Source: a virus
Virus record (IMG/VR): IMGVR_UViG_3300009610_000065
Location: 1-30,624 of that record
Reading direction: 5' to 3' (one strand)
DNA length: 30,624 nt
Below the pieces are notes generated by a model, which saw nothing but the letters and a program-made list of their open reading frames with translations, was not told where the DNA came from and did not search any database. The position numbers and the translations under genes are program-made. Below, piece by piece: positions 379 through 30,254 of this stretch; the first letter of the stretch is position 1; every line of letters starts with the position of its first letter.

Positions 379-384
379 GTCGGC

Positions 385-926: not shown

Positions 927-1016
927 TCGTGACCTCTCTCCCTTATCCCCGACCGTGGACCGTCCGATACATCCCCACAGGTGGATACGGGCAACCAGTT
1001 TGCTCGTGTCTGCTCA

Positions 1017-1051
1017 GGGGCCGTGTGCCTGTTCACGCAGGGCACGGTCCC
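1017..1051 (-). other. Imperfect stem-loop in the gap between tail and lysis-region genes
   Basis: On the minus strand GGGACCGTGCC pairs with GGCACACGGCCCC. There is one mismatch and a two-base bulge, around a loop of about 11 bases. No run of T follows on either side, so it is a weak candidate for an intrinsic terminator. It lies in the 176-base gap between the 190-residue tail gene and the membrane-protein gene. Apart from this stem and a possible 22-codon frame, I see nothing in that gap. Confidence 0.3.
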
Positions 1052-1101
1052 GACTCGTCTTCCCCGAAAAATTCACAGTAGCCGTTGAGCTTTCTGGACA
1101 T
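1033..1101 (-). CDS. Possible 22-residue microprotein in intergenic gap
   Basis: An ATG one base beyond the stop of the 190-residue gene opens a 22-codon frame ending in TGA. The peptide MSRKLNGYCEFFGEDESGPC is acidic with two cysteines. The only ribosome-site candidate is GAGTGG inside the end of the previous gene. It overlaps the stem-loop described separately, so the sequence may be kept for RNA structure and not protein. The frame is short enough to arise by chance. Confidence 0.2.
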   Translation of the reverse strand: MSRKLNGYCEFFGEDESGPCPA

Positions 1102-1102
1102 C

Positions 1103-1675
1103 TCAATACCACTCAATCACTTGATAGCCGACAACCCCGCCGAGCGTCGTTTCATTCGCCCGAACCGTCGTGGCATTCAGCAACGCCACTCGACATTGTG
1201 TCGTGAGCTCCGCCGCCGTCGTATCGAACAGAAAGCCGAGGTAATCCACTTCCGTCTTCCCCGTGTTCACCGTCGTGATCGTGTCGTCGGTGGGATCGGC
1301 CGCAACCGTAATCGCGCCTCGTTGCACCGACTTGATCACCCCCGGCCAGTACTCGATCAATTCAAAGTTCGCCGTTACCGTCCCGGCTGGCGTGTTGCCG
1401 CGTGTCGCCGTGATCGTGGTCGTGTTCGTCAACGCGATCCGGCAATAGCCGTTATCGTTCTGTTGCAGTGCTGTGCTGGACGCCCCGAGAAACTTCAGCC
1501 GGCTATTCGTCAACACGACAGCGGTGATCGCGCCGGTATTTGACGACGCCCCGCCGGCAATCGTGATCGTCCCGCGCTGGATCGACCGCACCAGCGAGGT
1601 TGGCATCCAGTTCGCCACATCACTGAACGCCGGGATCCCGCCTTGATGCGCCCGCGAGCCGAAGCGGTTGCTCAT
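1103..1675 (-). CDS. Tail/appendage structural protein with internal duplication
   Basis: This is a 190-residue beta-rich protein of Thr, Ala, Val and Gly with no membrane helix. It contains two tandem copies of one domain. The first runs from about residue 29 (VRSIQRGTITIAGG) to the phrase FELIEYW near 107. The second runs from IKSVQRGAITVAAD near 113 to the C-terminal YQVIEWY. Each copy opens with the same SxQRGxITxA strand and closes with the same xxIEYW/xxIEWY strand, so the gene arose by duplication. The start overlaps the previous stop as TGATG. It ends the run of appendage genes left of the ejection genes. A virion surface or fibre-accessory role is inferred from composition and place. 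Confidence 0.7.
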   Translation of the reverse strand: MSNRFGSRAHQGGIPAFSDVANWMPTSLVRSIQRGTITIAGGASSNTGAITAVVLTNSRLKFLGASSTALQQNDNGYCRIALTNTTTITATRGNTPAGTVTANFELIEYWPGVIKSVQRGAITVAADPTDDTITTVNTGKTEVDYLGFLFDTTAAELTTQCRVALLNATTVRANETTLGGVVGYQVIEWY

Positions 1676-2049
1676 CAGCTCACCGTCATGCGATTCACGT
1701 TACCGCTGATCATGACGACATTCGCTGAGGCGCAGAACGCCTTCACCGTCACCGCCGCCGCGCCCGTGCCCGTCAAGCGCTTCCCGGCAATGATCAGCCG
1801 ATCGCCACTCTCGGCGGGAATCGTCACTTCCAGTAGATCATCCGGTGACGTGACCCCGCCCCACTCGATCGTCAGTTTCCGATCCGTCGTGTCGGTGTTA
1901 TTCGCGTAGAGCCAGATTTCATCGAACACCGTCGCGCTCGTGCCGGTGGCGTGGATGGTCGTGCCCGGTGTGCTCGTGGCGACGACTTTGATTTGTCGTC
2001 CAGTCGTCGAACCCGACAACAGGACGGGAACAGTGGGAACGGCAGCCAT
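1675..2049 (-). CDS. Small beta-rich virion protein (124 aa)
   Basis: A 124-residue, Thr/Gly/Val-rich protein with the alternating pattern of a beta sandwich (for example TGRQIKVVATSTPGTTIHAT and RKLTIEWGG). This type is common among phage head or tail accessory proteins. It has no signal peptide, coiled coil or enzyme motif. The ATG at 2049 has a strong purine-rich ribosome site (GGGAGAGAG) 6 bases upstream. The stop overlaps the next gene's start. It sits between a fibre-like gene with a head-binding-like N-terminus and a duplicated-domain tail protein, so it is probably part of the same appendage. The exact role is unknown. Confidence 0.65.
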   Translation of the reverse strand: MAAVPTVPVLLSGSTTGRQIKVVATSTPGTTIHATGTSATVFDEIWLYANNTDTTDRKLTIEWGGVTSPDDLLEVTIPAESGDRLIIAGKRLTGTGAAAVTVKAFCASANVVMISGNVNRMTVS

Positions 2050-2062
2050 ATCAACTCTCTCC

Positions 2063-2773
2063 CTACGTCATGCAATCAATAAACAGGATGTCCGGCTGCA
2101 CATCAGTGACCGGATTCGGCACGATCACAATCGTGGTCGTGGATTGCGCCTGTCCGATAAACCGCGCATTCGTCGGCGCCGTTGCTGTCAACGAGCCGGC
2201 CGTGGCGCTCACGTAATACGAGCTGCCCGCCGTGAGTGGCCCCGCCACCGTCATCAGCCCTTGCAGGCGAATCGTGCCGGTCGCTCCAGAAGCGATCGCG
2301 CTGGGTACCATCCCCACCGTGACCGCCGCACTACTGGCGTAGGTCAGATCGGCATCAGCCTTGTACCAACTGCCCGGCGTGAGCGAGCCTGATCCGGTCG
2401 AGAGATACACCACGTCCTCCGCCGCGAGATCGACACCCGCCACGCCCTGAATATCCACGTTGACGGTGGACGGCGGCACCGCGGCGATGTTGTCCTGCGT
2501 CCACACGGCCACATCGGCGGAGGTCGTGAGGATGAACTTGTACGACTGGCCCGGCTCAAGATAGAGTTCGCTGGACCCTGAGATACGTCCCGCGCTATCG
2601 AGCACAATCGGATTCGTGTGGGCCGTCCCCGAGGACGTTTGATACACCGTCACCGCATCCGCGGGATACGAGCCGCCCGCCGTGACGGTATAGAGCTTCC
2701 CAGACGAGAGCGGATTGCCGCTCGCATCGAGCAACTGTCTTTTGACGTTTGGGCTCAGGGTATAAGTCGCCAC
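2063..2773 (-). CDS. Tail fibre/spike-type protein with podovirus head-binding-like N-terminal domain
   Basis: 236 residues. The first 90 or so show the pattern seen at the N-terminus of many podovirus tail spikes and fibres. In order these are a GxPLSSGKLYTVTAGG segment, the NPIVLDSAGRISG motif, a YLEPGQSYKFIL strand and the closing VWTQDNI. The second half (about 130-225) is a separate beta domain with the phrase GPLTAGSSYYVSATAG, seen in phage capsid-cement-like and fibre proteins. No long receptor-binding or enzymatic domain follows, so it may be an adaptor that holds another appendage. Translation starts at GTG (2771-2773), four bases after the stop of the small upstream gene. Confidence 0.75.
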   Translation of the reverse strand: MATYTLSPNVKRQLLDASGNPLSSGKLYTVTAGGSYPADAVTVYQTSSGTAHTNPIVLDSAGRISGSSELYLEPGQSYKFILTTSADVAVWTQDNIAAVPPSTVNVDIQGVAGVDLAAEDVVYLSTGSGSLTPGSWYKADADLTYASSAAVTVGMVPSAIASGATGTIRLQGLMTVAGPLTAGSSYYVSATAGSLTATAPTNARFIGQAQSTTTIVIVPNPVTDVQPDILFIDCMT

Positions 2774-2776
2774 GGG

Positions 2777-2899
2777 TTACAATGCTCCGTTGATGCGCTT
2801 CTGGCTGCTCGACCTGCCGGCGCTTATCGTTACGCTCCTGTTTCGGGCGTATGCCGTCTGTCTCGCCGCGATGGCGCTGGTCTGTTTTCTTTCCGTCAT
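2777..2899 (-). CDS. Small basic protein (40 aa) coupled to ejection gene
   Basis: An ATG overlaps the stop of the 591-residue gene as ATGA, with an AAGGG ribosome site 6-7 bases before it. The frame ends 3 bases before the GTG of the next gene, so it exactly fills the space between two well-supported genes. The product is basic, Ser/Ala/Arg-rich and probably unstructured. The opposite strand of the same bases carries a 50-codon hydrophobic frame (see findings), so coding on this strand is favoured by the ribosome site and coupling but not certain. No function is recognised. Confidence 0.5.
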   Translation of the reverse strand: MTERKQTSAIAARQTAYARNRSVTISAGRSSSQKRINGAL

Positions 2900-4671
2900 T
2901 TATTCCCTTGCGGCACTGGCGTTCCAGTGGCCCCCGATTTGGTAGCCTGCTCGATCAGATTCGTGAGCCGGGCATACCGTGCCGTCGCCACGGCCGTGGC
3001 TTTCAACGGCACGCGCACGCCTTCAACTAAGAGCCTCGTGATCGTCGGAGAACTGAGCGCCTTCGCTAACGCCGCGCCCGTCAACTGATACGCCGCCAGG
3101 GTCACCGGATCGGTCAGGAGATAGCCTTGGGCCATTAACCCGCCGACGTGCGCGGATCCGCTGGGATTCGACTGCTCCCCCATCTTGCGCGCGAGCGCCC
3201 AGAACCGATCCAGGTCTTTGATATACGCCGGGTCTTGAAAGAGCAGCCGCTTTGTCTCCGGCCCGAGCTTTTGCCATTTCGTCGCGAGTGATTGTGTGGC
3301 GGTAAACCCGCCGTCTTTCGTGGCTTCTGTCAGGAGATCCGAGAGCACCGCTTTGCCGACGTGCGGCAACGAGTCCGGGGCGAACTTCTGAAGCTCGCGC
3401 AGGTGCATCACGGCCGCATCACTCGGCGCAATCGCGGCATTCGCGGTTCTCACTGGCTCCGCTTTGAGTGCGTCGAGGACTTCGGCCGCGGCATACTTCT
3501 GGCGTGTGGCGAGTCGGCCTTCCTTGAGCGCCGAGACGGCCTCAGGACCGAGTGATGCCGCCGCGTCATCCACGGCCTTGCTCAACTTCTGGACGGCAAA
3601 CGCCGCCGCGCCCTGACCGCTAGACCGCAATTCCGGCATCGCCGCGCCACGCGACATTGATTTCAGTTGGCTGAGCGCCCCATCCACCGCGGATAACGGA
3701 GCCATATCGGGGCCGTTCACGAGCGCATCCAACGCCGTCGCCGCGTGCGCTTCCGCCCCTTGTAGACTTCCCGTTAACTCTTTTTTCCGCAGCAGCCGAT
3801 CCAGTGCCGGTTTCAGAACCGATTTCACAGACACGAGATCCACGGCCACCGGGGTCGCCTGCTCAAGCGCGCGCACCGTGCCGTAGTGAACATCGGCGGC
3901 ATCATCGAAACCCTTGATCGAGGCTTCCACACCCGCCCGCGCCGCTGCACCCGCCGTTTCCTTCGTCACCGCCGGTGTATAGCCCTTCGCGGCCAACTGC
4001 TCACCCACGGTCGCTAAGCCAGCCTGCCGCGCCTTTGCCGCTTTCGTCCCGATGACACTGCCGGCGACAGAGGTCTTCGTGGCTAACTGTTGGGCAGCGC
4101 GAGGGATGGGATTCGCCGTCGCCGACGCCACATCCACAGGAATCCCCTGTTTGAGTCCCCACGCGGCCAGTTCACGCTCCGGCGTCACCGTGCCACCGAT
4201 GCGCGCCGGTATTTTCCCGACGAGTTTCGGCGCCTGCCACGCGAGCGCACCGCCTGCCAACCGGCCCGCCGCGCCCGCCACGTCGCCCGTTCCCGCCTGC
4301 TCACCAATCGACGCCGCCAACGGACCCACCACCGGCAGAAACGAGGCCGTGCCATGCCCCACCATTTCGGAGTAGCGGCCTTCGCGAGCGGCTTGCACAG
4401 CCTTGTCAAACTCTGCGCCTTGTTGCTGATACATCGCGGACACGGTATCCACGGGATGTCGAACGGTCTGATACAGCCCTTTGGCGATCGTGACTGGATT
4501 CACCATCTCGCCCACACCGGAGGCGAATCGACCCGCCGCAGATCGGGTTGGTGGCAGCGAAGGCTGAGGCGTAGACGCCTGCCGCGCCTGTTCGGCCAAC
4601 GCGGCATAGTCCGGCCCGGACGCCTCTCGGCGGGCTTGTTCCGCGAGCTTCGCGTAATCGATCTGCGGCAT
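2896..4671 (-). CDS. Large internal virion (ejection) protein candidate
   Basis: 591 residues. The N-terminus repeats a short helical motif: IDYAKLAEQARREAS at 4-18 and PDYAALAEQARQAS at 20-33. The middle is Ala-rich, helical and heptad-like. It includes hydrophobic Gly/Ala stretches near residues 105-145 (ASFLPVVGPLAASIGEQAGT) and 525-560 (GYLLTDPVTLAAYQLTGAAL) that could touch membrane. It is the last and largest of four consecutive genes after the gp10-like gene. In P22 that position is held by the ejection proteins gp7, gp20 and gp16, with the large gp16 last. I infer a protein packed in the head and sent into the host with the DNA. No lytic transglycosylase motif was seen. Start and previous stop overlap as TAATG. 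Confidence 0.65.
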   Translation of the reverse strand: MPQIDYAKLAEQARREASGPDYAALAEQARQASTPQPSLPPTRSAAGRFASGVGEMVNPVTIAKGLYQTVRHPVDTVSAMYQQQGAEFDKAVQAAREGRYSEMVGHGTASFLPVVGPLAASIGEQAGTGDVAGAAGRLAGGALAWQAPKLVGKIPARIGGTVTPERELAAWGLKQGIPVDVASATANPIPRAAQQLATKTSVAGSVIGTKAAKARQAGLATVGEQLAAKGYTPAVTKETAGAAARAGVEASIKGFDDAADVHYGTVRALEQATPVAVDLVSVKSVLKPALDRLLRKKELTGSLQGAEAHAATALDALVNGPDMAPLSAVDGALSQLKSMSRGAAMPELRSSGQGAAAFAVQKLSKAVDDAAASLGPEAVSALKEGRLATRQKYAAAEVLDALKAEPVRTANAAIAPSDAAVMHLRELQKFAPDSLPHVGKAVLSDLLTEATKDGGFTATQSLATKWQKLGPETKRLLFQDPAYIKDLDRFWALARKMGEQSNPSGSAHVGGLMAQGYLLTDPVTLAAYQLTGAALAKALSSPTITRLLVEGVRVPLKATAVATARYARLTNLIEQATKSGATGTPVPQGNK

Positions 4672-6035
4672 TATCGCCCGCCTCCGATCAGTTTCTTGAA
4701 CGCGTCGGCTTGTGCTTGCGTCTCAAAGGGATGCACGGACCCATCGGGAGCCGTGACAGAGAACGGTCCGCCCGTTGATTTCGGTGCCCCGCGCTCGGTA
4801 AACCGCGACACGTCATAGCCCGCATCCGCCAGCGCTTCGAGTTGTGTTTCCCGCCGCAATGTCAGCGCGGACTGTAAGCCGTGGAGTTTGGACTTCACGA
4901 CTTCCGGCGCGTCATAAATGGTCGGCAAAATCTTTTCGTATTTCGCCTCGTCCTCTTTACGCAGGACGCCGCCTTCTAACGCCTTCCCAATGACCTGCTT
5001 CACGCGATCGATCGCGGCCTGCTTCTGTTTGGCAGAAATGCCGCGGCCTGTCAGCTCCGTGACCCAATTCGGCAGACTCGCGCCAATCTTTGCGCTCGTG
5101 CCCGTCGAACCCGTCACCGTGTTCGTCAAGACGTTCAGGTCATTCAGCGACGTGTCGAGGTCGGCAATGCGCCCGGCATCGCCACTGGTGACCGGACGAC
5201 CCTGTTCGCGGGACTGCCCAGAGCGCCACCCATCACGGGAAAGCGTTGATGCCTCGGTCGGCGTCACGAAACGCATCTCACTGCCCTTACTCACCCAGAC
5301 AGAAGGCTTCTCCGTGCCAGTCGATTCTCGCCCAGCTGCGATCTGCTGCCGTCGCAGTTGCAACGCCTTATTCGGATCGCCGCCCGCCGCTTGCATCAAG
5401 ATCGACCATTCGGTCGGCTGCGGCGCCACCGGCTCTTTCGGCGGCATGATCACTTGCCCATTCGGCCCGATCTGTCCGCCCATCCCTTGAATCGACTGCT
5501 CCACCGCAATCCCGCGTTGCTGCTCGCGGGTCGGCTGCAGTTCCGGCCCCTCGGCGGTACCGGGTCCGAAGCTGTACCGCACCCGACCCGCTGCCGGCCC
5601 CTGCATCACGGGATCGACTTGCGACTCACTCATCGGGCCGTAGCCAATCTCATCCGCGACCTTTCCGCCGCGGGTGTACGCCGTCGCCTCGGCGGCCGCG
5701 CGGGTGGCCTCTTCTTTAGCGAGCCGATTTTGTTCGCGCTCCTGCTGCAGGGCTTCAAACTGCGCCACCTTTAGCGAGTCCTCCAGTCCCTTCCGGCGTT
5801 GCTCGTCCGCGTACTGCGCCGCCTGTTCCTTCTCCTGCCGCAGCTGTCCGAGCCCCCCGCCCACGATCTGCCCGAGTGTCATCAAGCCGTGCGCCGTCGC
5901 CTGCCCCTTCCGACCGACCGCTTCGGCGCGCGCCTGCCCCGCCATCTGCATCAACTGCAGCAGCGTGCGCGTATCCGGCTCATAGGCCGGACGCACATAC
6001 GGGAGTGGCGCGCGATCAACGGGACGGATCGGCAT
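4671..6035 (-). CDS. Internal virion (ejection) protein candidate with coiled coil
   Basis: 454 residues, soluble. Residues about 60-125 are a long charged coiled coil rich in Gln, Glu, Arg and Ala. A disordered Pro/Gly-rich linker follows (about 130-285). The C-terminal part (about 290-415) is helical and contains the phrases GISAKQKQAAIDRVKQVIGK and VVKSKLHGLQSALTLRRETQ. This type of C-terminal domain occurs in phage internal or DNA-injection proteins. The last 35 residues form a small PFSVTAPDGSVHPF beta-hairpin-like end. It lies between two other candidate ejection genes, overlapping the downstream one by TAATG. The role is inferred from architecture and gene order. Confidence 0.6.
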   Translation of the reverse strand: MPIRPVDRAPLPYVRPAYEPDTRTLLQLMQMAGQARAEAVGRKGQATAHGLMTLGQIVGGGLGQLRQEKEQAAQYADEQRRKGLEDSLKVAQFEALQQEREQNRLAKEEATRAAAEATAYTRGGKVADEIGYGPMSESQVDPVMQGPAAGRVRYSFGPGTAEGPELQPTREQQRGIAVEQSIQGMGGQIGPNGQVIMPPKEPVAPQPTEWSILMQAAGGDPNKALQLRRQQIAAGRESTGTEKPSVWVSKGSEMRFVTPTEASTLSRDGWRSGQSREQGRPVTSGDAGRIADLDTSLNDLNVLTNTVTGSTGTSAKIGASLPNWVTELTGRGISAKQKQAAIDRVKQVIGKALEGGVLRKEDEAKYEKILPTIYDAPEVVKSKLHGLQSALTLRRETQLEALADAGYDVSRFTERGAPKSTGGPFSVTAPDGSVHPFETQAQADAFKKLIGGGR

Positions 6036-6880
6036 CAGTCAACCCACACAGGATTCGACAACCAGTCGCCTTCGGCCTTCCATTTATTGAAGTCATTCAT
6101 CGCCGCATCCCGCCGGGCGCCGTAGTCGTTCTGTGACACGCCGAGATTGAACGTGTTGCGCTGGCCGACGGTGTTCGCCCGCGTATCAAACACGTCGCGC
6201 CGCTGGCCGTATTGCTTGCCCCAGATGTCCGCCGCGTTCCCGCGGTTCGTGTCGTACTCCTGCAACGCGCGGTTGTAGACGTTCCCGTACTCCTGGGAGG
6301 CGAAGTTCTGGCCGTAGCCGAGAATGTCCTTCAGCGTCCCGCCAGAGCGCAGCACGCCCCGCCCCGCCGCCGACGCTTCGAGCGCCTTCCGCCCTTGATC
6401 GAGTCGGAACTGGAATCCGGGCTCCTGCAGCATCGTGTCGCCCGTCGGCGCGGCGAAGTCACGGAAGGTAAACCGCGGGCCGGGATCGAATTCGCCCGGA
6501 TCCATATAGCTCGGCGCGGCGTAGCTCGGCCACGCGCCACCCCCGCCACCGCCTGCACCCGGACCACCGCCGCCATACCCACCCGGCGGCGTGTAATCTC
6601 CACCAATCGGCGCAATATCTCCACCGCCTGTCGGCGTCGTAGTTGCCGTGGGCGCCTGCGGCATCGCCACCGTTTCCCATTTGCCGTTTTGGAACACCCA
6701 CCGCAACCCCGGTGGGAGCGGATGACCCGACAGATCCGCCGTCGGGTCATAGAGCCAGTCCGGCGGCGCGGTATCGGGATCAGTCCACGTCTCGGTCGGT
6801 GGTCCGGCCGGATCCGCCACAGGGGCCGGCCTCCACGGCTCCCCGCCCATCGCTACGTCATTGCCATATGCGTCCAGCAT
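6035..6880 (-). CDS. DNA-transfer/ejection-type virion protein
   Basis: 281 residues in two parts. The first 130 are disordered and very rich in Pro and Gly, with a glycine tract near 100-118. The C-terminal half carries a conserved phage structural signature. It starts at EPGFQFRLDQGRKALEASAA (near 152-171), continues through RGVLRSGGTLKDILGYGQNF, and then ASQEYGNVYNRALQEYDTN. I know this pattern from proteins annotated as phage DNA-transfer or internal virion proteins. Its place among the four post-gp10 genes supports that. The stop lies next to the ATG of the following 454-residue gene, suggesting coupled translation. Confidence 0.65.
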   Translation of the reverse strand: MLDAYGNDVAMGGEPWRPAPVADPAGPPTETWTDPDTAPPDWLYDPTADLSGHPLPPGLRWVFQNGKWETVAMPQAPTATTTPTGGGDIAPIGGDYTPPGGYGGGGPGAGGGGGGAWPSYAAPSYMDPGEFDPGPRFTFRDFAAPTGDTMLQEPGFQFRLDQGRKALEASAAGRGVLRSGGTLKDILGYGQNFASQEYGNVYNRALQEYDTNRGNAADIWGKQYGQRRDVFDTRANTVGQRNTFNLGVSQNDYGARRDAAMNDFNKWKAEGDWLSNPVWVD

Positions 6881-6883
6881 GGC

Positions 6884-7594
6884 TTACCCCCGCCCCCGTC
6901 CAAGAAAGTCACTCAACCGTACCCGCGCCTGTTGCCGTCGGCCTTCGCGCTCTTCGATCAGCCGGCGAGTAAACGCCCGCTCCTCGTCTGAGGCCGCGAG
7001 TTCCCGCGCCCGGTTCTGCTGGTCCACGTCCCAGCGCCGTTGTTCTTCGCCATACAGCCGATCGGCTTCGGCGCGGCGCTGCGCTTCGATCTCGCGGGCA
7101 TAGGCCATCTGCTGTTGGAGGTTCTGCTGCTCGATCTGGGCCTGCCGATCTAGCGCTTTATTCTGTGAGCGTTGGCCGAGATAACTCGTCACCGCCGGCA
7201 CGGCGACTTGCGCGAATTTTGAGAGGTTCCCGAGCGTATAGAGTCCACCCGCGCCTGCGGCCGAACTCACGCCGGCTCCGGCGCCTGCCCCAGCGACCCC
7301 CGTCCCAGCGGCCCCCGCTGCACCAGCTGCGCCGCCACTCGCCGCGGCGCCACCGCCCAGCAACGCGGCGCCGCCCGCCACCGCGAACGGCGCGAGACTC
7401 GCGATCTGTCCGAACCGTACCAAGCGGTTATGCGATGCTTTGCTGCGGTTGTTCTGATCGAGGCGGATCGCTTCATTCCACGCCTGATGCTCCGCCTCAT
7501 CGCCCCACACGGATTTCACGGGCAACGCACGAATGGCTTGCACGGACTGCTGCTGCGCCGGTGTGAGCGTGTAACGAGACAAATCGTAGGGCAT
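6884..7594 (-). CDS. Membrane-active ejection protein candidate
   Basis: 236 residues. The N-terminus is helical and polar (MPYDLSRYTLTPAQQQSVQA). Residues about 60-120 are a hydrophobic Gly/Ala-rich stretch (LAPFAVAGGAALLGGGAAAS and on) that could insert in membrane. The C-terminal half is a strongly charged coiled coil of Gln, Glu, Arg and Ala ending in basic VRLSDFLGRGRG. Polar head, glycine-rich hydrophobic core and coiled-coil tail are typical of small podovirus ejection proteins, which help make the trans-envelope DNA channel. It is the first of four genes in the P22 ejection position. The specific P22 counterpart (gp7 or gp20) cannot be told by eye. Confidence 0.6.
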   Translation of the reverse strand: MPYDLSRYTLTPAQQQSVQAIRALPVKSVWGDEAEHQAWNEAIRLDQNNRSKASHNRLVRFGQIASLAPFAVAGGAALLGGGAAASGGAAGAAGAAGTGVAGAGAGAGVSSAAGAGGLYTLGNLSKFAQVAVPAVTSYLGQRSQNKALDRQAQIEQQNLQQQMAYAREIEAQRRAEADRLYGEEQRRWDVDQQNRARELAASDEERAFTRRLIEEREGRRQQARVRLSDFLGRGRG

Positions 7595-7599
7595 GGTGG

Positions 7600-8103
7600 T
7601 TAACTCGCCACGCTCGCCAGCACGGCATAAAAGGCGTAGTGCATCGCGGACGCCGCATTCGAGGCATACGTCAATACATAGCGAATCGGGGCGTCACCAT
7701 CGGCCTTGACCAAATACGACTCACTCGCATTCGTCGTCGTCGTATTGCCCGTCATTGCGGTAAAGGTGTGCGTCTTCGCCACCCCGCCTTCGGTCCAATT
7801 CAATGCGGGCGTGAGACTCGAACTCACCCCCGCTGCCGTCAGCACCGAGGTATAGAACTGAAAGCTGTACAAGCCGTCCTGCTCCGGCGTGAGGAGGGTC
7901 GTCGCGGCCACCGACGCATTGAGATCCGCTTCACTCACCGAGGCATTCGGCAGAATGCGCGGCGTGTTATCCAGGTCCGTCCGCAAATCGCGGAAAAATC
8001 GGTTCCACGGTTCGGTCGTGACTTGCCCCTTCTCCCCGGCCTCATTGGTCGCCTGTTGTGACAGAAACGCGCGCGGGATCGGCGGCTTATTCGTGACCGC
8101 CAT
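7600..8103 (-). CDS. Virion structural protein with C-terminal beta domain
   Basis: 167 residues. The first 60 are helical and polar (PWNRFFRDLRTDLDN). The C-terminal 100 form a beta-rich domain with phrases LYSFQFYTSVLTAAGVSSS, LNWTEGGVAKTHTFTAMTGN and YVLTYASNAASAMHYAFY. That domain recurs at the C-terminus of many phage tail and appendage proteins. Because it directly follows the gp10-like gene, it stands where P22 has the gp26 needle. It lacks the long heptad coiled coil expected of a needle, so that identity is not supported. Start and previous stop overlap as TAATG. Confidence 0.65.
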   Translation of the reverse strand: MAVTNKPPIPRAFLSQQATNEAGEKGQVTTEPWNRFFRDLRTDLDNTPRILPNASVSEADLNASVAATTLLTPEQDGLYSFQFYTSVLTAAGVSSSLTPALNWTEGGVAKTHTFTAMTGNTTTTNASESYLVKADGDAPIRYVLTYASNAASAMHYAFYAVLASVAS

Positions 8104-9551
8104 TACGCCACCGCCTTTTCCGCGTCCAGAAACACTTGCGTGATCCTCCAGGGCATCGCATCCGTGGCGACCAACTCATAGACACGATTTCTCGCCAAGC
8201 CCAACTGCCAGAACCACACGAGCGCGCTATACGCCCCGACTTCGCCCACCTCGGCGGTCACTTCATTGCCCCACGTCTTGCCGCCATCATCCGAATAGCG
8301 CAGGGACAACACGGGGGCATCCCCCTGGGACGCCAATCCGGTTTCCATCAGGATCGTGAGCTTGCGATGGAACACTTCGAGTTGTTGATTGACAATCGCC
8401 GGAGTCCGACGCACGCGCCGGATGAACCGATCATCCACATCCGTCGTGTAGTCATGATCCATGTCGTACAGCACGCCGGATTCCCGATCGCCCACGAGAT
8501 GCTTATTGAAGGCAAACGCATAGAACACCGGACGGAAATAGCGGTATTCGCTCGTCTCCTCCACCCACGTGCCCAGATCCGTCCACAGCCCATTCGTAAA
8601 GTCGAACTGCTTGGTCACATCCGCCGCCGGGAACGTCAACCGAAAGAACGTATGGCCGTCCATTCGCATCGACTCACCGATCGCATCGGTGATCCCCACC
8701 GTCTTCGTGAACTCCGACATCTGATGTTCGAGTGCGAAATCTGAAATTCGCGAGGGCTGTAACCCCGAGGCGGCCACCACTTCATAATCGCCATCGTTAT
8801 TCACCGACAGCCACACCACCGATCCGCCGGCATTCGTGATAGAAAACGTCGCGGCAATGCCTTTGTTGAAGTTCCCGGCGGAATCCAGCGCGAAGGGCAG
8901 CGGGAACCCACCGTTCGGGTACCACATCTCGCCGGAGTACTGCCCCGGTAGACAGATATAGCCCCACGTCGTCACGCACATCGCCTGCCAGTTATCCGGC
9001 TGATTCGAGCGCTGGAAGAAGTTGGTCGGATCGAAGACGGAGAAGTCCAGCAGATCGGAGTAATAGACCGTGCTGGTGGCGGAATCAAACACCAGCCCAT
9101 ACCCACCGAGATAGGCGCCTTGCGTGGCCTTCCCGTTGAGATCGGTGATCTGGGTCAGCGTATCCGTGGCGAGCGTGTAGTAGTAGGCATTCGTTCCTGA
9201 CGTGATCAGGAGTTGCCCACCGCCATCACCATTCGTGGAAATCGTCGCCGGGTTATTATCGAGCGCGACCGTACCCCGGAGCGTGGCCGTACCGACTTCC
9301 GCCGGAAACGTGATCTCGTAAAAGCCATCCTGGCACACCCCAAATGTCCGCCCGTTCATTTCAAACAGGCAGCGCCAGCCGACTTTCGAGACGCGAAGAA
9401 ACTCTTCCACGCCCGGTGTCGGCAGCAGCGTGATCGGACTGGTCGCGCCCTTCGATTCGGCTTTCTCGACGTACCAGTTCATCGTGAACTCTTGCGAGTT
9501 CTGCGCGTTCTGGGTGACGTAGGAGCGCCCAAGGGCGTTGTCGAAGATCAT
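8103..9551 (-). CDS. P22 gp10-like packaged-DNA stabilisation (tail hub) protein
   Basis: 482 residues, against about 470 for P22 gp10. The protein is rich in beta strands, with repeated aromatic-glycine turns: GGQLLITSGTNAYYYTLATD, GLVFDSATSTVYYSDLLDFS, MCVTTWGYICLPGQYSGEMW and FTNGLWTDLGTW. This is the pattern of the P22 gp10 (Phage_stabilise) family. A conserved C-terminal section includes LSLRYSDDGGKTW, as seen in gp10-like proteins. In P22, gp10 binds beneath gp4 and plugs the portal, keeping DNA in the head. A gp4-like gene lies upstream in the same operon, though separated by fibre genes. The start has a GGGATG context close to the previous stop. Confidence 0.8.
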   Translation of the reverse strand: MIFDNALGRSYVTQNAQNSQEFTMNWYVEKAESKGATSPITLLPTPGVEEFLRVSKVGWRCLFEMNGRTFGVCQDGFYEITFPAEVGTATLRGTVALDNNPATISTNGDGGGQLLITSGTNAYYYTLATDTLTQITDLNGKATQGAYLGGYGLVFDSATSTVYYSDLLDFSVFDPTNFFQRSNQPDNWQAMCVTTWGYICLPGQYSGEMWYPNGGFPLPFALDSAGNFNKGIAATFSITNAGGSVVWLSVNNDGDYEVVAASGLQPSRISDFALEHQMSEFTKTVGITDAIGESMRMDGHTFFRLTFPAADVTKQFDFTNGLWTDLGTWVEETSEYRYFRPVFYAFAFNKHLVGDRESGVLYDMDHDYTTDVDDRFIRRVRRTPAIVNQQLEVFHRKLTILMETGLASQGDAPVLSLRYSDDGGKTWGNEVTAEVGEVGAYSALVWFWQLGLARNRVYELVATDAMPWRITQVFLDAEKAVA

Positions 9552-20438: not shown

Positions 20439-20657
20439 TTACGACATTCGCCACTTGCGCCCCCACTTCTGCTGTCGAACCATTCGCTGCGCAATTTCGG
20501 GCGAGTTCTCGTCTGTGATCCGCTCTGACACCTCAATCTCGGCATCGCATGTGCATTCCCCGCCATTTAGCTTTGGGCAATCGTTGTTGTGGTAAACCGC
20601 AACCATTCGCACGCCTCGCGCCGAAGGAATATCGAGAACCTTCTTTAAGTAGCTCAT
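20439..20657 (-). CDS. Small protein with Cys motif (72 aa)
   Basis: I choose the ATG at 20655-20657, which overlaps the large-terminase stop as ATGA, over a TTG four codons earlier. The 72-residue protein has a conserved-looking core, VAVYHNNDCPKLNGGECTCD, with Cys27, Cys35 and Cys37, followed by AEIEVSERI. This HNxxCPxLxGGxCTCD pattern occurs in small phage proteins and probably binds one metal ion with the preceding His. The C-terminus is basic (VRQQKWGRKWRM). It belongs to the set of short Cys proteins scattered through this phage. Function unknown. Confidence 0.6.
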   Translation of the reverse strand: MSYLKKVLDIPSARGVRMVAVYHNNDCPKLNGGECTCDAEIEVSERITDENSPEIAQRMVRQQKWGRKWRMS

Positions 20658-22060
20658 ACGCTCATCCAATCGGTCCCGGCATACGTCTGGGATCGCGGCT
20701 CGTCCATGAACTTTGGCCGCTCCTCTTCGGGGGGTTGATACCGCACGGCCAACCCGCGAAACGCATCGGCGCCGTGACTCGCCCAGTTATGCACGGGCGT
20801 CCCGGTAAACTCATTCAGGCGTGCGTTATGCGCCTTCCGATAGTTCCGAAGGGATTCAATAAGCCCCGCTGAATGCTTCTCGTCAAACCAGCACTTCGCC
20901 AGAAACAATCGCGTCGCATTGATGCCATCCGTCAGCGCCAGCGCCGGTAGAGGCTCCTCGAACTTCAGCCCAAGACTGGCGGCCGTTTCTTTCCGGCTCT
21001 TGCCCGTGCCTAACTCGCGAACGGCGATGTCATGCGGTGGGTAGTGCTTCCCGTAGGTGTACCCACGATCCGCCAACACCTGAATGTAATGGCCGAAGCC
21101 TTCCCCGCTCGCTTCGTAGTAATCCACAATCCGGACTTCGCCCGACCGGAACGACTGGCTGAAGACAATCGCGGTCGAGTCGTCCATCCCGAGATCCCAA
21201 TCGGTGTTGACCGGCAGCACGGGGTCCACCGGCACGCGCGTAATCCGCCCCTGCGTCTTCGCCGCGGCCATCTCCTTCCGGTACCACGCCCCCTGAATCG
21301 CTGCGTCAGGACTGAGATACCATTCCTGGTCGAACTCGTCCTGCGTCATGGCACCGTTGACGACCAGTTTGCGATCGTCCTCCATCGCGCGGATGAGCGC
21401 CGTAATCGTGGCGCCTTCCTCGTTGGCGAGCGAGACATCGACGTCCTGCCAGAGCGCGAACCATTCCGGGTCCACCGTCGCCGCCGCATGGAGATCAAAT
21501 AACTGGTCATGGCCCTTAATCGTCCCAGACCAGATGCAATACCCGACATGATCCGCGAGCGTCTTGGAGAGAATTTCCCCGAAGACATTCTTCGGAATCT
21601 GCGAGAACTCATCCAATGACAGGCCCGATAAGCCGGGACCGCGGAGCGAATCCGGATTATCGGCACCAATCAACTGCACCCGATTACCATTCGGATAGAC
21701 CACGAGCAATTCCGACTCGTTGAACTTGTGCCCCGGAATCGGGCGGGCAATATCCTTCAGCATCTCCCACGCCACGAGCTTGGCTTGCTTGTAGCTCGGC
21801 ATCACATGCCAATAGATACGCTTCTTGAGGAGCGTTTCAATCTGGTCTGCGGGTGCCTTGGGGAGTAAGTAGGTCAGGCGTTGCCGCTCCCAGTCGTCAT
21901 TCGTGGCGGCCCGCTGATGATGGTTGAGTTCAAAGGTCGTCTTCCCGGCGCGTCGATGGAGGACTAACGCGAGCCAGCGCTTGAACGTCGCATGCGCCGC
22001 CCGCGCCCACTTCCGCGGGCGATAGGGAATCACAATCTCCATCGGCGGGGCGAGCGTCAT
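20654..22060 (-). CDS. terL: Terminase large subunit (packaging ATPase/nuclease)
   Basis: 468 residues. The ATPase domain has Walker A HRRAGKTT at 35-42 and Walker B GLSGLSLDEF at 146-152 with catalytic Glu151. A coupling motif follows near WSGTIKG (177-183). The RNase H-like nuclease has the first acidic residues in NTDWDLGMDDSTAIVF (Asp287, Asp289) and the last in HGADAFRGLA (Asp432). It docks on the portal, drives DNA into the procapsid and cuts the concatemer. All key residues are present, so it should be active. The ATG overlaps the small-subunit stop as ATGA. Length and layout match P22-type headful terminases, though packaging mode cannot be proved here. Confidence 0.9.
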   Translation of the reverse strand: MTLAPPMEIVIPYRPRKWARAAHATFKRWLALVLHRRAGKTTFELNHHQRAATNDDWERQRLTYLLPKAPADQIETLLKKRIYWHVMPSYKQAKLVAWEMLKDIARPIPGHKFNESELLVVYPNGNRVQLIGADNPDSLRGPGLSGLSLDEFSQIPKNVFGEILSKTLADHVGYCIWSGTIKGHDQLFDLHAAATVDPEWFALWQDVDVSLANEEGATITALIRAMEDDRKLVVNGAMTQDEFDQEWYLSPDAAIQGAWYRKEMAAAKTQGRITRVPVDPVLPVNTDWDLGMDDSTAIVFSQSFRSGEVRIVDYYEASGEGFGHYIQVLADRGYTYGKHYPPHDIAVRELGTGKSRKETAASLGLKFEEPLPALALTDGINATRLFLAKCWFDEKHSAGLIESLRNYRKAHNARLNEFTGTPVHNWASHGADAFRGLAVRYQPPEEERPKFMDEPRSQTYAGTDWMSV

Positions 22061-22539
22061 TCGCCATCACCCAGCCAGCGAATCGTCAGCCCGCCGGAAT
22101 GCTCAATCTTCTCGGTAAGGAGGGCGAAGTGCTTCGCCAGCATCTCGAGGTTCTTGGACTTATCCCAAACCTTGACCTTATGGACGGTATCCATGTGCCC
22201 ATCGCCAGCCTCGGCATTCTTGACAATGACCTCCAAGCCGGCGATACAGGCGGCCTCTTCCGCCGTGAGCGTGTGGAGCGGCTTCAGCTTCCCGTTGGCA
22301 TCGAACAGCGCGCGTACGTCTGAGAAGGCTAACCGGCCAATCTCCTGCAAGACCCGCTCAGCGGTGATGTCAGCCTTCGCGAGTTGCTGCTGTGTCTTTT
22401 CGGCCACAGCCCCCCGAATGCTAGGATTTGCCATTAACGCGGCGGCCATTTTAGGGTGATAGCCCGCACGTTCGGCTGCCGCGGTCGCGTTCAGGTCTTT
22501 GCGGTATTCCGCCACGAATCGGACTTGCTTTGGGGTCAT
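22057..22539 (-). CDS. terS: Terminase small subunit (DNA recognition)
   Basis: 160 residues, opening MTPKQVRFVAEYRKDLNATA followed by AAERAGYHPKMAAALMANPS. This is the terminase_2 signature, in which the N-terminal helix-turn-helix recognises the packaging site. The middle helices (VLQEIGRLAFSDVRALFDAN) and the C-terminal VWDKSKNLEMLAKHFALLTE are also typical; the latter is the region by which small subunits contact the large subunit. It lies directly before terL with an ATGA overlap at each end. In headful phages the pac site often lies in this gene; I could not pick it out. Confidence 0.88.
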   Translation of the reverse strand: MTPKQVRFVAEYRKDLNATAAAERAGYHPKMAAALMANPSIRGAVAEKTQQQLAKADITAERVLQEIGRLAFSDVRALFDANGKLKPLHTLTAEEAACIAGLEVIVKNAEAGDGHMDTVHKVKVWDKSKNLEMLAKHFALLTEKIEHSGGLTIRWLGDGE

Positions 22540-23969: not shown

Positions 23970-24468
23970 CTGGCAGCGCATCCACTTCGGCATCGCTCAT
24001 CATCTTGACGCGGAATACCAATTGCTCGGACTCGTCCATCTGCGGCAGATACTGCTGTAATGTCTCCCACACGGCAGACGCGGCGAGATCGTCTACGTCA
24101 CCGATGCACGTGTCGGCGTCCTCAGGCTCATTACTTGGGCCGAAGAGACGCAGTTTCTTTTTGTCGCGATCGACTTCGCTCTTCGACGCGTGGGTCGGAT
24201 TCTCAGGCGCGATAGCTGAGGCTGGAGCGTAGCGCGACTGATCGTCGTCCTCTCTGACCGTCCCACAGACACGACACGTCGGGGAGGGCTCGGGCGGCGC
24301 GATCTGCGTTGTGCGCCAGGTGTCGTAGGCCGACCAACAGCTAGCCACGCCGCTCCACTGGGCAAGCTCGAGCGCCGCGTCCCAGCCGGCTGCGAAGGCG
24401 TCGGCCTGACCTGGCGGGATCGCCTTTTCTTGATCGTTATTTGGCTCGGACTTTTCGGGCTCTCGCAA
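23962..24468 (-). CDS. Hypothetical protein with half zinc ribbon, TTG start (168 aa)
   Basis: The start is TTG at 24466-24468, backed by a strong AGGAG 7 bases before it; no ATG or GTG near the beginning fits. The protein opens MREPEKSEPNNDQEKA, has a helix ADAFAAGWDAALELAQWSGV, then the shared repeat-encoded APPEPSPTCRVCGT at 58-70. Only one CxxC (Cys65, Cys68) is present, whereas its neighbour has a full ribbon, so it may be a decayed or dimeric zinc site. The C-terminus is acidic and helical (WETLQQYLPQMDESEQLVFR). It overlaps the 66-residue gene upstream by 32 bases. Function unknown. Confidence 0.6.
   Translation of the reverse strand: MREPEKSEPNNDQEKAIPPGQADAFAAGWDAALELAQWSGVASCWSAYDTWRTTQIAPPEPSPTCRVCGTVREDDDQSRYAPASAIAPENPTHASKSEVDRDKKKLRLFGPSNEPEDADTCIGDVDDLAASAVWETLQQYLPQMDESEQLVFRVKMMSDAEVDALPDV
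24266..24300. repeat. 35-bp exact direct repeat, copy 2 (pairs with 23654-23688)
   Basis: Identical over 35 bases to the copy about 610 bases to the left, then different on both sides. In this gene it encodes APPEPSPTCRVCG of the 168-residue protein. Reading frame is kept in both copies, so the segment moved as a coding module. Confidence 0.85.
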
Positions 24469-24637
24469 GATGCTTCTCCTGTTGCGGTCGGTTGCCGGTT
24501 TTAGTACCGCCTTTGCGCCGTCCGTCGAGCGTGTCGAGCGCGAACGTGAGCAAGGCTTCGATGGCCGCGAGGCGATCCAGTCCCTTGCGGAGCATGTAGT
24601 CGTCGATGCGATCGTTGAGTGTTTTCATCGGCGTCAT
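24437..24637 (-). CDS. Small helical basic protein (66 aa)
   Basis: I choose the ATG at 24635-24637, which overlaps the stop of a membrane microprotein as TAATG; a second ATG three codons on is also possible. The protein has the helices MKTLNDRIDDYMLRKGLDRL and AAIEALLTFALDTLDGRRKG, then a strongly basic tail ending ARARKVRAK. The phrase AIEALLTFALDTLD resembles VDALLAFARWALDG in the 179-residue gene at 26310-26849, so the two may share a helical module. The basic end suggests nucleic-acid contact. Function unknown. Confidence 0.55.
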   Translation of the reverse strand: MTPMKTLNDRIDDYMLRKGLDRLAAIEALLTFALDTLDGRRKGGTKTGNRPQQEKHLARARKVRAK

Positions 24638-24720
24638 TATCGCTGTGACTTCGCGAATATCCATGCGCACAGCAGCACGTAGGCAATCGCGCACAGCACC
24701 TCGATTACCTTCGCTGCCAC
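24637..24720 (-). CDS. Membrane microprotein B, one helix (27 aa)
   Basis: GTG start at 24718-24720, inside the end of microprotein A (16-base overlap), with GGGA as a modest ribosome site. The stop overlaps the next ATG as TAATG. The peptide reads MAAKVIEVLCAIAYVLLCAW and ends IFAKSQR. It is a single predicted membrane helix of about 18 residues with a basic end inside. Size and shape match microprotein A, so they probably form a pair in the inner membrane. Not long enough to assign a family. Confidence 0.5.
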   Translation of the reverse strand: MAAKVIEVLCAIAYVLLCAWIFAKSQR

Positions 24721-24789: not shown

Positions 24790-25140
24790 TTATAGCCCAC
24801 CGTCGTATCGCGCCAACACTTCTCTGAGCCTCTTAAGATCCGATTCCCTCGGCGCCCATTCCGCCTTCGCTACAGGGATCGCCACGATCATGATGTTCGC
24901 TAGTTGTTGTCGTAACCGCATCTCTACGCTTGAATCTCGCTGTTGCTGACTGCTCGCAGGCCGAACCATTAACGGCGTCTCCATGTCAATCGGCTCGGAC
25001 ACGCCAAGATCGAAGTTGAACACGACGCACGATTTCTGCGGCCAGTCGTTCACCCATTCGACGAGCATCCAACCGTCGCCGTCCCAAATCTCGTCGCCCT
25101 TCCTCACGTCTTTCGCGGCTTTCATCTGTGGGAACGCCAT
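24790..25140 (-). CDS. Small beta-fold phage protein (116 aa)
   Basis: I choose the ATG that overlaps the previous stop as TGATG, leaving 116 residues. The first 60 residues, MKAAKDVRKGDEIWDGDGWM then LVEWVNDWPQKSCVVFNFDL, have the KDVRKGDEI turn followed by alternating strands seen in small phage proteins with a beta-barrel fold. The second half is helical (SSVEMRLRQQLANIMIVAIP, then LKRLREVLARYDGGL). There is no metal site or membrane segment. It is the second gene of the transcript from the promoter at 25368-25396. Function unknown. Confidence 0.6.
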   Translation of the reverse strand: MAFPQMKAAKDVRKGDEIWDGDGWMLVEWVNDWPQKSCVVFNFDLGVSEPIDMETPLMVRPASSQQQRDSSVEMRLRQQLANIMIVAIPVAKAEWAPRESDLKRLREVLARYDGGL

Positions 25141-25361
25141 CACGCGGCCTTCGCTTTCTTCGCGTCATGCGCCAACGTCATCTCGCACTGTTCCGCCCAG
25201 AACATAAGCGCGTCCTGATGCGTCATGTTCCGACTCGCGCCGACCAGCCACATTTCGGGCAGGAAGTGCGTCACGCCGTCCAGCATAAAGCTCGTCACGC
25301 GACCGCGCTTCTCTGCCTTGAATCCCTCGCAGCACCCGCAAACCGTTGATGTCTTTGCCAT
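25140..25361 (-). CDS. Small Cys-cluster protein, first gene after the promoter (73 aa)
   Basis: 73 residues opening MAKTSTVCGCCEGFKAEKRG, with Cys8, Cys10 and Cys11 close together and Cys59 later; a metal site is possible. The middle (VTSFMLDGVTHFLPEMWLVG) has a hydrophobic face and the tail is basic (AHDAKKAKAA). The ATG lies only 6 bases from the -10 box of a good promoter and has no ribosome site, so the message should begin at or beside the ATG (leaderless). The stop overlaps the next ATG as TGATG. As first gene of this transcript it may be a regulator, by position only. Confidence 0.65.
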   Translation of the reverse strand: MAKTSTVCGCCEGFKAEKRGRVTSFMLDGVTHFLPEMWLVGASRNMTHQDALMFWAEQCEMTLAHDAKKAKAA

Positions 25362-25367
25362 ATTCAG

Positions 25368-25396
25368 AGTCTATGCTTAGCGTAGTTACTAGTCAA
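25368..25396 (-). promoter_or_regulatory. Sigma70-like promoter giving a near-leaderless transcript
   Basis: On the minus strand, TTGACT at 25391-25396 (5 of 6 matches to the -35 consensus) is spaced 17 bases from TAGACT at 25368-25373 (4 of 6 to TATAAT). The region 25362-25433 is AT-rich in a GC-rich genome and is the longest clear promoter-like gap in the window. Six bases separate the -10 box from the ATG of the 73-residue gene, so transcription would start near the A of that ATG. It would drive the small genes and then terminases and virion genes. Confidence 0.65.
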
Positions 25397-25415
25397 GCGA
25401 AATAGTATGCTTAGC
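25372..25415 (-). repeat. Paired 10-bp direct repeats flanking the promoter (operator candidate)
   Basis: TATGCTTAGC on the plus strand occurs exactly at 25372-25381 and at 25406-25415, 34 bases apart. One overlaps the -10 box; the other is just upstream of -35. Each carries the near-palindrome GCTTAGC/GCTAAGC. The arrangement fits a site where a repressor or activator binds twice across the promoter, about three helical turns apart. Confidence 0.5.
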
Positions 25416-25433
25416 TGAGATTTAATAATTAGC

Positions 25434-25757
25434 CTATTTGTCCTCTTTTTCGGTCACTCCCGGCACATCGGCGGGCGCGTCGGTCAGCGCATCGGTTGGA
25501 CTCGGGTGGTCGGAGCGCGCCAACGCCTTGTCGTCGTCGTTCGTCTCCTCTCGTGCGGGCGGGACGCGGAGGGCCGCGATCAGGGCGTCAATAGCGTGAG
25601 GACGCGGATCGTGGACGCGGCGGTAATCCCACTCGAATCCGCATTCACCACACGCGATGTAGTCATTACCTCCGCTGCGCGAACGCTGCGGGTGGTCGCA
25701 CATCAGGTGCTTCCTCGCTTCCTCCACGGTGGCGTCTCGGGCGGGATCGCGAGTCAT
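25434..25757 (-). CDS. Zinc-ribbon protein with shared ALARSDHPS segment (107 aa)
   Basis: 107 residues. The N-terminal half has the metal pattern Cys20-x-His22 and Cys36-x2-Cys39 (CDHPQRSRSGG, then ACGECGFEWDY), typical of a small zinc ribbon. The C-terminal third is a low-complexity acidic linker containing DKALARSDHPS (near 77-87). This phrase also occurs in the next gene upstream, encoded by a 29-base near-repeat. The start overlaps the previous stop as ATGA. The stop is followed by the AT-rich promoter region. It is probably a regulator or host-interaction protein, on metal-site grounds only. Confidence 0.6.
   Translation of the reverse strand: MTRDPARDATVEEARKHLMCDHPQRSRSGGNDYIACGECGFEWDYRRVHDPRPHAIDALIAALRVPPAREETNDDDKALARSDHPSPTDALTDAPADVPGVTEKEDK
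25501..25529. repeat. 29-bp near-exact repeat, copy 1 (pairs with 26043-26071)
   Basis: ctcgggtggtcggagcgcgc plus 9 more bases match 26043-26071 at 27 of 29 positions. On the coding strand both encode KALARSDHPS in frame. The two differences are both synonymous (Ala and Leu codons), so the peptide has been kept while the DNA drifted. Confidence 0.75.
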
Positions 25758-26855: not shown

Positions 26856-26930
26856 TTACCTCAAGAAAATGCAAATCCTTTTACGCGCTTCGACCACTGA
26901 GCCGAAGTCACCGCTGACCAACGCGGCCAT
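26856..26930 (-). CDS. Possible 24-residue microprotein
   Basis: An ATG overlapping the DUF4326 stop as TGATG opens a 24-codon frame (MAALVSGDFGSVVEARKRIC, ending IFLR). No good ribosome site is seen; translation would need re-initiation. It nearly fills the 80-base gap before the 179-residue gene. It could equally be a simple spacer. Confidence 0.25.
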   Translation of the reverse strand: MAALVSGDFGSVVEARKRICIFLR

Positions 26931-27289
26931 CACGGTACCGGGTTCGCGAGTTCTAAAAGCACGTCGGCATGACACGGTTGATCGAGTCGGCACCAGCACG
27001 CGAGATTCTTACCTTGTAGGACGCTACGGGCGGCCTCAGAGGGGTGCTCTCCGTTGAACCGCTTCAGCCACGCCTGCCGTAGTTCCAACGCCGCTAGCGC
27101 CCGCGCTACGTCCAAGTCAGGCCCCCATAACCCGCTCACCATGTCTCGGTAAAGGAGAATGGCGTGATCGAGGCCAAACACCGACGCCGTGAAGGGGTTA
27201 CCCCAATAGCCGGGTCTGCCCACATAGACCGTGTTCTCTGGCATCTTCCAGCCCTTCGACCGCTTCCGTTGAATACGGATCGGCGTCAT
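26930..27289 (-). CDS. DUF4326 family protein
   Basis: 119 residues matching the DUF4326 pattern. The N-terminal RIQRKRSKGWKMPENTVYVG leads to GRPGYWGNPF (24-33), and the C-terminal NLACWCRLDQPCHADVLLEL (95-114) carries the CWC and PCHAD motifs with Cys98, Cys100, Cys106 and His107. The family is widespread in phages and bacteria, often as a small stand-alone protein; its biochemical role is not established to my knowledge. The length is complete for the family. The ATG overlaps the previous stop as ATGA with AGGGAG upstream. Confidence 0.8.
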   Translation of the reverse strand: MTPIRIQRKRSKGWKMPENTVYVGRPGYWGNPFTASVFGLDHAILLYRDMVSGLWGPDLDVARALAALELRQAWLKRFNGEHPSEAARSVLQGKNLACWCRLDQPCHADVLLELANPVP

Positions 27290-29733: not shown

Positions 29734-29934
29734 CTACTTGGCCTTCTTTCGCGGCAGTGGCTTCTTATAGGCCGCAATCGCCGCCATCCCGGCCGCGTGG
29801 CCCGCTTGCGCGATCTGTGTGTCCAACTTGTCGATCGTCGTCGGCGTCTGCACCTTGTGGATATTGATCCTGAGTTGCATGATTGCTTCGTGAACGGCGT
29901 CGTAGATCGCTTGCTCTTTCCGTTCGCTTCTCAT
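29734..29934 (-). CDS. Small helical basic protein (66 aa)
   Basis: The ATG at 29932-29934 overlaps the previous stop as ATGA; a longer frame reaches back into that gene and is rejected. The protein is helical and charged: MRSERKEQAIYDAVHEAIMQ, then LRINIHKVQTPTTIDKLDTQ, then a basic end AAYKKPLPRKKAK. It has no cysteine or membrane helix. Its stop lies directly before the VRR-NUC start, so the two are co-translated and may work together. Function unknown. Confidence 0.6.
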   Translation of the reverse strand: MRSERKEQAIYDAVHEAIMQLRINIHKVQTPTTIDKLDTQIAQAGHAAGMAAIAAYKKPLPRKKAK

Positions 29935-30254
29935 CGGACGCCCCATTTCGTGCGCTTCGTCTGCCACTGGGTTAACTCGTACTCCCCGCTATCCACGATC
30001 AGATCGCCCAGCCCGTTCCTGGTGGAATTAATCGAACTGACTTCCCGCCCGAGTGCCTTCGCCGCCGCGTGATCGCTCAGGGGCCCCACCACGCGCAATA
30101 ACTCCAGGTAGGCGCAGGACAGCTTCCCGCGGTCGATCGCCGCTCTCCGCGCGCCCGTTGCCGAGGCATGGCGGGTTCTGGGCGTCTTGCCGGCCACAGG
30201 CAGCCGGACATCCGTATCCCAGTCGAAGGTGGGATCCAAAGGTTGTGAGATCAT
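29931..30254 (-). CDS. Winged-helix-like DNA-binding protein (107 aa)
   Basis: 107 residues. After a polar N-terminus with many Arg (KTPRTRHASATGARRAAIDR), residues about 47-82 match the fold of phage winged helices, with LELLRVVGPLSDHAAAKALG followed by recognition helix SSINSTRNGLGDL, a turn, and the wing VDSGEYELTQWQ. It resembles the common phage 'GPLTDxExAxxLGxxxxxVxxxRxxL' helix-turn-helix family. This could be a regulator or replication-linked protein. The ATG overlaps the metallophosphoesterase stop region, keeping these coupled. Confidence 0.65.
   Translation of the reverse strand: MISQPLDPTFDWDTDVRLPVAGKTPRTRHASATGARRAAIDRGKLSCAYLELLRVVGPLSDHAAAKALGREVSSINSTRNGLGDLIVDSGEYELTQWQTKRTKWGVR

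Follow-up and report, generated by a model that had tools for sequence, protein, structure and literature searches.

The window analyzed here, the full 30,624 nucleotides of IMG/VR record IMGVR_UViG_3300009610_000065 (30.6 kb of viral sequence, with no repeats at its ends), is by its predicted proteins a podovirus-like phage, with PHROG matches for terminase small and large subunits, portal, scaffold, P22-type coat and head-closure proteins. Its terminase large subunit (TerL) is nearest to those of Rhodoferax P26218 and Pelagibacter HTVC010P-like phages (~38-39%). On the question of the host, a genome_contig search with TerL returned nothing close, and a TerL-alignment search gave mixed matches of at most 45% identity, many of them alphaproteobacterial. 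There is no integrase among the window proteins scanned, and nothing in the contig points to lysogeny. A DUF4326 protein (PF14216) encoded at 26930-27289 has its nearest copies in Arthrobacter phages (47%) and a Bradyrhizobium phage (47%), and the DNA of this stretch alone gives BLAST matches in actinophages.

All of the genes treated below, those of the island, the operon and terminase, are encoded on the minus strand (Table 1). A 72-bp island separates the stop codon of the ORF at 25434-25757 from the ATG at 25361. With 35% GC, against 61% in the window, it is the window's only AT-rich island, as a sequence-only reading of this DNA had stated, and it contains the 60-mer of lowest GC (0.32; the next lowest is 0.38). 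Its minus strand reads GCTAATTATTAAATCTCAGCTAAGCATACTATTTCGC-TTGACT-AGTAACTACGCTAAGCA-TAGACT-CTGAAT-ATG, which bears out the earlier description of TTGACT and TAGACT hexamers 17 nt apart, followed after 6 nt by an ATG and lacking a ribosome site. The TAG of the -10 hexamer doubles as an in-frame stop just before the start codon.

Table 1. Positions of the regulatory elements and genes discussed; L191 is the related phage contig IMGVR_UViG_3300037762_000057
Feature	Position	Strand	Remarks
Distal operator TCAGCTAAGCATA, core GCTAAGC	25406..25418	minus	11/13 to TAYGCTWAGCRTA; core 19 nt before -35, conserved in L191
-35 hexamer TTGACT	25391..25396	minus	identical in L191; 5/6 bases fixed by search pattern
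Proximal operator TACGCTAAGCATA, 13-bp near-palindrome	25372..25384	minus	13/13 to TAYGCTWAGCRTA; 13/13 identical in L191
-10 hexamer TAGACT	25368..25373	minus	identical in L191
CTGAAT, 6-nt -10-to-ATG spacer	25362..25367	minus	no Shine-Dalgarno; identical in L191
Conserved regulatory cassette, 105 nt	25354..25458	minus	ungapped, 84/105 identical (80%) to L191:96-200
First gene, 73 aa, predicted leaderless	25140..25361	minus	overlaps next gene (TGATG); no family match
Second gene, 117 aa	24790..25143	minus	no relative found in IMG/VR
63-aa basic protein MKTLNDRIDDYM...KVRAK, candidate operator binder	24437..24628	minus	84% identical in L191
Terminase small subunit	22057-22539	minus	PHROG phrog_51/phrog_2 matches for terminase pair; downstream of island, same strand
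Terminase large subunit (TerL)	20654-22060	minus	PHROG phrog_51/phrog_2 matches for terminase pair; downstream of island

Placing the -10 hexamer at positions -12 to -7 makes the first base of the ATG at 25361 the predicted +1, and the mRNA should be leaderless. The anti-Shine-Dalgarno energy before this ATG is -0.5 kcal/mol, i.e., there is no Shine-Dalgarno sequence, and the same is found in the L191 record. Among the 46 candidate starts in the window this is the only one preceded by TANNNT-N(4-9), and many of the others have clear Shine-Dalgarno sequences. A TANNNT motif about 12 bp before the start marks leaderless genes in high-GC bacteria; genes of this type are typical of Actinobacteria and Deinococcus-Thermus, where they are frequent, and occur also in Acidobacteria and deltaproteobacteria (PMC3160421). 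The island resembles these bacterial genes in having the first T of TAGACT 12 nt before the ATG, in L191 as well, and no Shine-Dalgarno sequence. It differs from them in leading a phage gene, in a genome where Shine-Dalgarno sequences precede most of the other genes. As a promoter the island scores 9/12 in the sigma-70 scheme with its 17-nt spacing, a score that 416 of 3,000 shuffled versions of it (14%) also reach, and promoter-like sites between 12000 and 30624 of the window are at chance level (4 found, 4.7 expected).

The decamer GCTAAGCATA occurs exactly twice in the window, at 25406-25415 and 25372-25381, the two copies being 34 bp apart. Each sits in a 13-bp near-palindrome, TAYGCTWAGCRTA, which is found nowhere else in the window (the next best site matches at 10/13). 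The distal decamer ends 9 nt upstream of -35, and the proximal operator covers the 3' part of the promoter spacer together with the first 2 nt of -10. The earlier claim of two exact copies, one over -10 and one above -35, thus holds, with an overlap of -10 of only 2 nt. A motif search of the kind that had been proposed also found that the repeats are not scattered: only the two copies occur in the window, and in the 28.6-kb record of L191 the core GCTWAGCRT lies only in the island. When the island was shuffled by dinucleotides 20,000 times, 114 of the shuffles contained an exact direct repeat of 10 nt (0.6%, P ~0.006); over the whole window there are 10 such repeat pairs, this one included, whose two copies lie within 50 bp, compared with 2.8 expected in the shuffled window. 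A scan for the pair pattern GCTAAGCATA-N20-28-GCTAAGCATA matched five contigs, none of them with the architecture of the island.

Taken on the statistics of the window alone, the island is unconvincing; it becomes convincing because it is conserved in L191. This contig was found by an IMG/VR scan with TTGAC-N10-GCTAAGCATANNNT, which matched seven contigs, only one of them, L191, with the same island; a control pattern off by one in spacing gave 2 matches, both unrelated. L191 is a diverged podovirus, with a portal protein 38% identical to that of the window, a different TerL and reordered small genes. In both phages the island lies ~3.3 kb before TerL and faces it. The homologous 105 nt begin within the upstream ORF, near its 3' end, and reach the third codon of the predicted leaderless gene, and the 21 mismatches all fall outside the operator cores, -35, the proximal 13-mer, -10, the 6-nt spacer and the ATG, leaving 39 of 39 element positions identical. 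Part of this agreement was built into the search, whose pattern held 10 of the 13 bases of the proximal operator; with the 16 pattern-fixed positions removed, the probability that none of the 21 mismatches would fall in the remaining 23 element positions is 7e-4. Three elements that the search pattern did not contain, the distal core GCTAAGC, the spacer CTGAAT and the ATG, nonetheless match in L191 at identical distances. The distal operator of L191 is a perfect palindrome, ACGCTAAGCGT, its core again 19 nt before TTGACT, and the proximal 13-mer, TAGACT, CTGAAT and ATGGCAAA are identical. Immediately after ATGGCAAA, past the third codon, homology drops to ~30%. In L199, from the same record as L191, the island is the only promoter-like site on the sense strand within 1-8500, and the first gene after it has a start without a Shine-Dalgarno sequence, one that most neighboring genes possess. 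The island DNA had no match among phage sequences, and there was no match in Rfam. The proposal of the sequence-only reading, a leaderless promoter with paired operators, is supported by elements that keep equal spacings in this diverged phage.

This conservation leaves hardly any room for a chance arrangement in an AT-rich spacer. The promoter score is within the range of shuffled islands and close 10-mer repeats are expected in the shuffled window, as given above; the retention in L191 of every element, with all distances between them unchanged, largely refutes that explanation. We also consider it very unlikely that the repeats are iterons of a replication origin, a packaging start or an integration site with the promoter hexamers coincidental. 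An AT-rich island with repeats would suit such a site, and clusters of GCTAAGCATA(G) occur between the genes of viral contigs unrelated to this phage (L003:4640-4720, L006:11810-11855, L007:540-650), some of the words arranged there as head-to-head palindromes. The window has only two copies and, among its scanned proteins, no integrase; moreover, what is exactly conserved is the -35/-10 spacing, the distance from -10 to the ATG and the start codon itself, and conservation ends at that codon.

The first genes behind the island, of 73 aa in the window and 69 aa in L191, are not homologous, and no IMG/VR relatives were found by the first gene, the second gene or the gene upstream of the island. 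Over its first 26 codons the 73-aa ORF has a poor coding score, and an in-frame GTG that could be an internal start follows a purine-rich stretch 21 codons into the ORF. These features would suit a real promoter whose first gene is translated from a weak internal ribosome site, the message not being functionally leaderless. Such a scenario is improbable, in our estimate: CTGAATATGGCAAA is identical in L191 even though the genes behind it differ, and the L191 ORF starts at exactly the same ATG, which argues for selection on the start codon and on its distance from -10. A second leaderless-like start, TGGATA-16-GATAAT-7-ATG at 24628-24663 on the minus strand before the 63-aa gene, was rejected; it is not conserved, the ATG in L191 overlapping the preceding stop. 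One terminator-like hairpin, at 22585-22567 before the terminase small subunit gene, is within chance numbers.

The 63-aa gene is the third after the island in the window and the second in L191, where it directly follows the leaderless gene. Its product is better conserved (84%, compared with 38% for portal) than any other shared protein detected. The structural model consists of a helical hairpin and a basic C-terminal helix (mean pLDDT 78, pTM 0.49), for which the best Foldseek matches are HU hairpins at a TM of ~0.6 and nonsignificant E values of 1.4 or worse. A PHROG annotated as transcriptional repressor matches the L191 copy, at an E value of only 0.016. There is no family match of weight, no CI/Cro family match and no PDB sequence match, and searches of phages and plasmids gave no matches. 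Assignment to the ribbon-helix-helix proteins was rejected, there being no Pfam or NCBIfam match and the predicted secondary structure being helices at 4-15, 19-39 and 47-61 with no strand. Assignment to HU/IHF was rejected as well: the hairpin superposes on HU, but beta arms and a sequence match are lacking. From its linkage to the island and its conservation, the 63-aa protein is our leading guess for the protein that may bind the operators.

We propose, with a probability of about 0.72, that the island is a regulated leaderless promoter for the operon ahead of terminase, with the 63-aa protein as the candidate binder. A sigma-70/SigA-type promoter, TTGACT-17-TAGACT, would start transcription at or within 1-2 bases of the A of the ATG at 25361; the leaderless mRNA would carry the small first gene, and read-through would extend it into the operon ahead of the terminase genes. 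The two TAYGCTWAGCRTA sites, their centers 34 bp apart, bracket the promoter, one above -35 and the other between -35 and -10 and touching -10. A dimeric protein bound at the proximal site would exclude RNA polymerase, and a second dimer 34 bp upstream (~3.2 turns) would add cooperativity or contact the polymerase. Repression is the likelier sign of regulation because the proximal site lies inside the core promoter. The binder would most probably be phage-encoded, with the 63-aa protein, a product of the same operon, as the best candidate for an autoregulator. A substantial but lesser possibility is that the leaderless promoter is as proposed but its palindromes bind a host regulator, or a phage protein whose gene lies off the contig, perhaps as activator sites. 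No recognized DNA-binding family is encoded near the island, both records are fragments from which a regulator may be missing, and the distal site, centered at about -50, would also suit an activator; set against this are the contact of the proximal site with -10, which suits repression, and the presence in the same operon of both phages of the best conserved of their shared proteins. It is plausible that the island is the main switch for the packaging and virion genes, as had been suggested earlier, and other promoters are possible too.

The textbook leaderless phage mRNA is that of lambda cI, transcribed from PRM. The PRM-cI region with OR1-OR3 is like the island in that the mRNA starts at the AUG, in the island by prediction, and repeated near-palindromic operators overlap the promoter, the two sites of the island matching at 13/13 and 11/13 with the core conserved at both positions. 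Unlike lambda, the island has two operators 34 bp apart and one direction of transcription, with no divergent cro-like gene, no CI/Cro-type protein nearby and nothing else in the contig that points to lysogeny; the genes on both sides share a strand, and the arrangement is not a lambda-like divergent immunity switch. In phage PY54 the cI and cro mRNAs are leaderless, as mapped by RACE, and lie beside a palindromic operator (PMC4488713). The likeness to the island is in the leaderless mRNAs next to a palindromic operator, the leaderless start being in our case predicted from sequence, whereas PY54 has one operator of 16-18 bp and divergent repressor genes, and the sequences are unrelated.

Comparable promoters were found closer to the window, in a survey of 54 TerL-related contigs of at least 50% GC (the window counted in) in which a promoter-like site was one scoring 9/12 or better with TANNNT. 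ATGs following such sites peak at 6-7 nt, the contributors being the window, both arms of an island in L023, L014 and L015, and L020; in the last four contigs, promoters scoring at least 9/12 have TAnnnT exactly 7 nt before the ATG. A further peak at 23 nt was discarded, as it comes from one homologous stretch in L081, L082, L091 and L093. The island of L023:6985-7125, L014:340-480 and L015:5374-5513 is AT-rich and divergent, lies ~970 bp before TerL, and has the leaderless-type promoters TTGACA-17-TATATT-7-ATG and TAGACA-17-TAGACT-7-ATG. Its paired repeat GTCAAYACA reads GTCAACACA in L023 and GTCAATACA in L015, both copies having changed. On its right lies a gene for a NikA-like ribbon-helix-helix protein (PF21983, E = 1.6e-9), and its leftward gene differs between L023 and L015 right after the start codon. 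This island is like that of the window in being AT-rich and shortly before TerL and in having leaderless-type promoters and paired direct repeats; it is unlike it in its two divergent promoters, its repeat sequence and the NikA-like gene beside it, and the two have no repeat or first gene in common. In L020:960-1060 a 19-bp perfect palindrome, TGTTCATTATTAATGAACA, occupies an AT-rich spot where more TGAAC/GTTCA repeats occur and adjoins a tRNA-looking stretch, at which ARAGORN makes no call. Regulated leaderless-type promoters seem, from these sequences, to recur in the TerL-related phage group, in few independent cases. Given these promoters and the mRNAs of PY54 and lambda, there is no support for the earlier view that operators alongside a leaderless start are unusual in phages; a regulated leaderless phage promoter is of a kind already known from lambda and PY54.

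What is possibly new is cassette behavior, in which a promoter travels with its own start codon. It is conceivable, though we would not call it probable, that promoter, twin operators and start codon form an exchangeable cassette, joined in different phages to varied first genes immediately behind the AUG, with a new family of small basic autoregulators (the 63-aa MKTL protein) kept alongside it. In L023 and L015, too, a conserved leaderless-type promoter leads into unrelated genes directly past ATGACGAA, which would make another example. We rate this novelty modestly because phages are commonly mosaic at gene boundaries; the window and L191 likewise share the 63-aa gene from its start codon to slightly beyond its stop codon. 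If the cassette is real, it would suggest that leaderless promoters help phage genes shuffle, since such a promoter supplies the start codon itself and works without a leader or a ribosome site. The proposed regulation, if true, would give uncultured podoviruses a compact testable unit of one promoter, two operators and one candidate regulator, in a lineage whose TerL and capsid are related to those of HTVC010P-, PAE2- and P22-like phages, and the TAnnnT style would hint that leaderless genes are in wide use in the host.

Another small protein shared by the two phages, of 65-77 aa (MSERKEQAIYDAVHEAI...; window 29734-29967 and L191:626-820), is 70% identical between them. In the window its gene is found 4.4 kb upstream of the island, but in L191 it comes straight after the 63-aa gene, an instance of the reordering of small genes.
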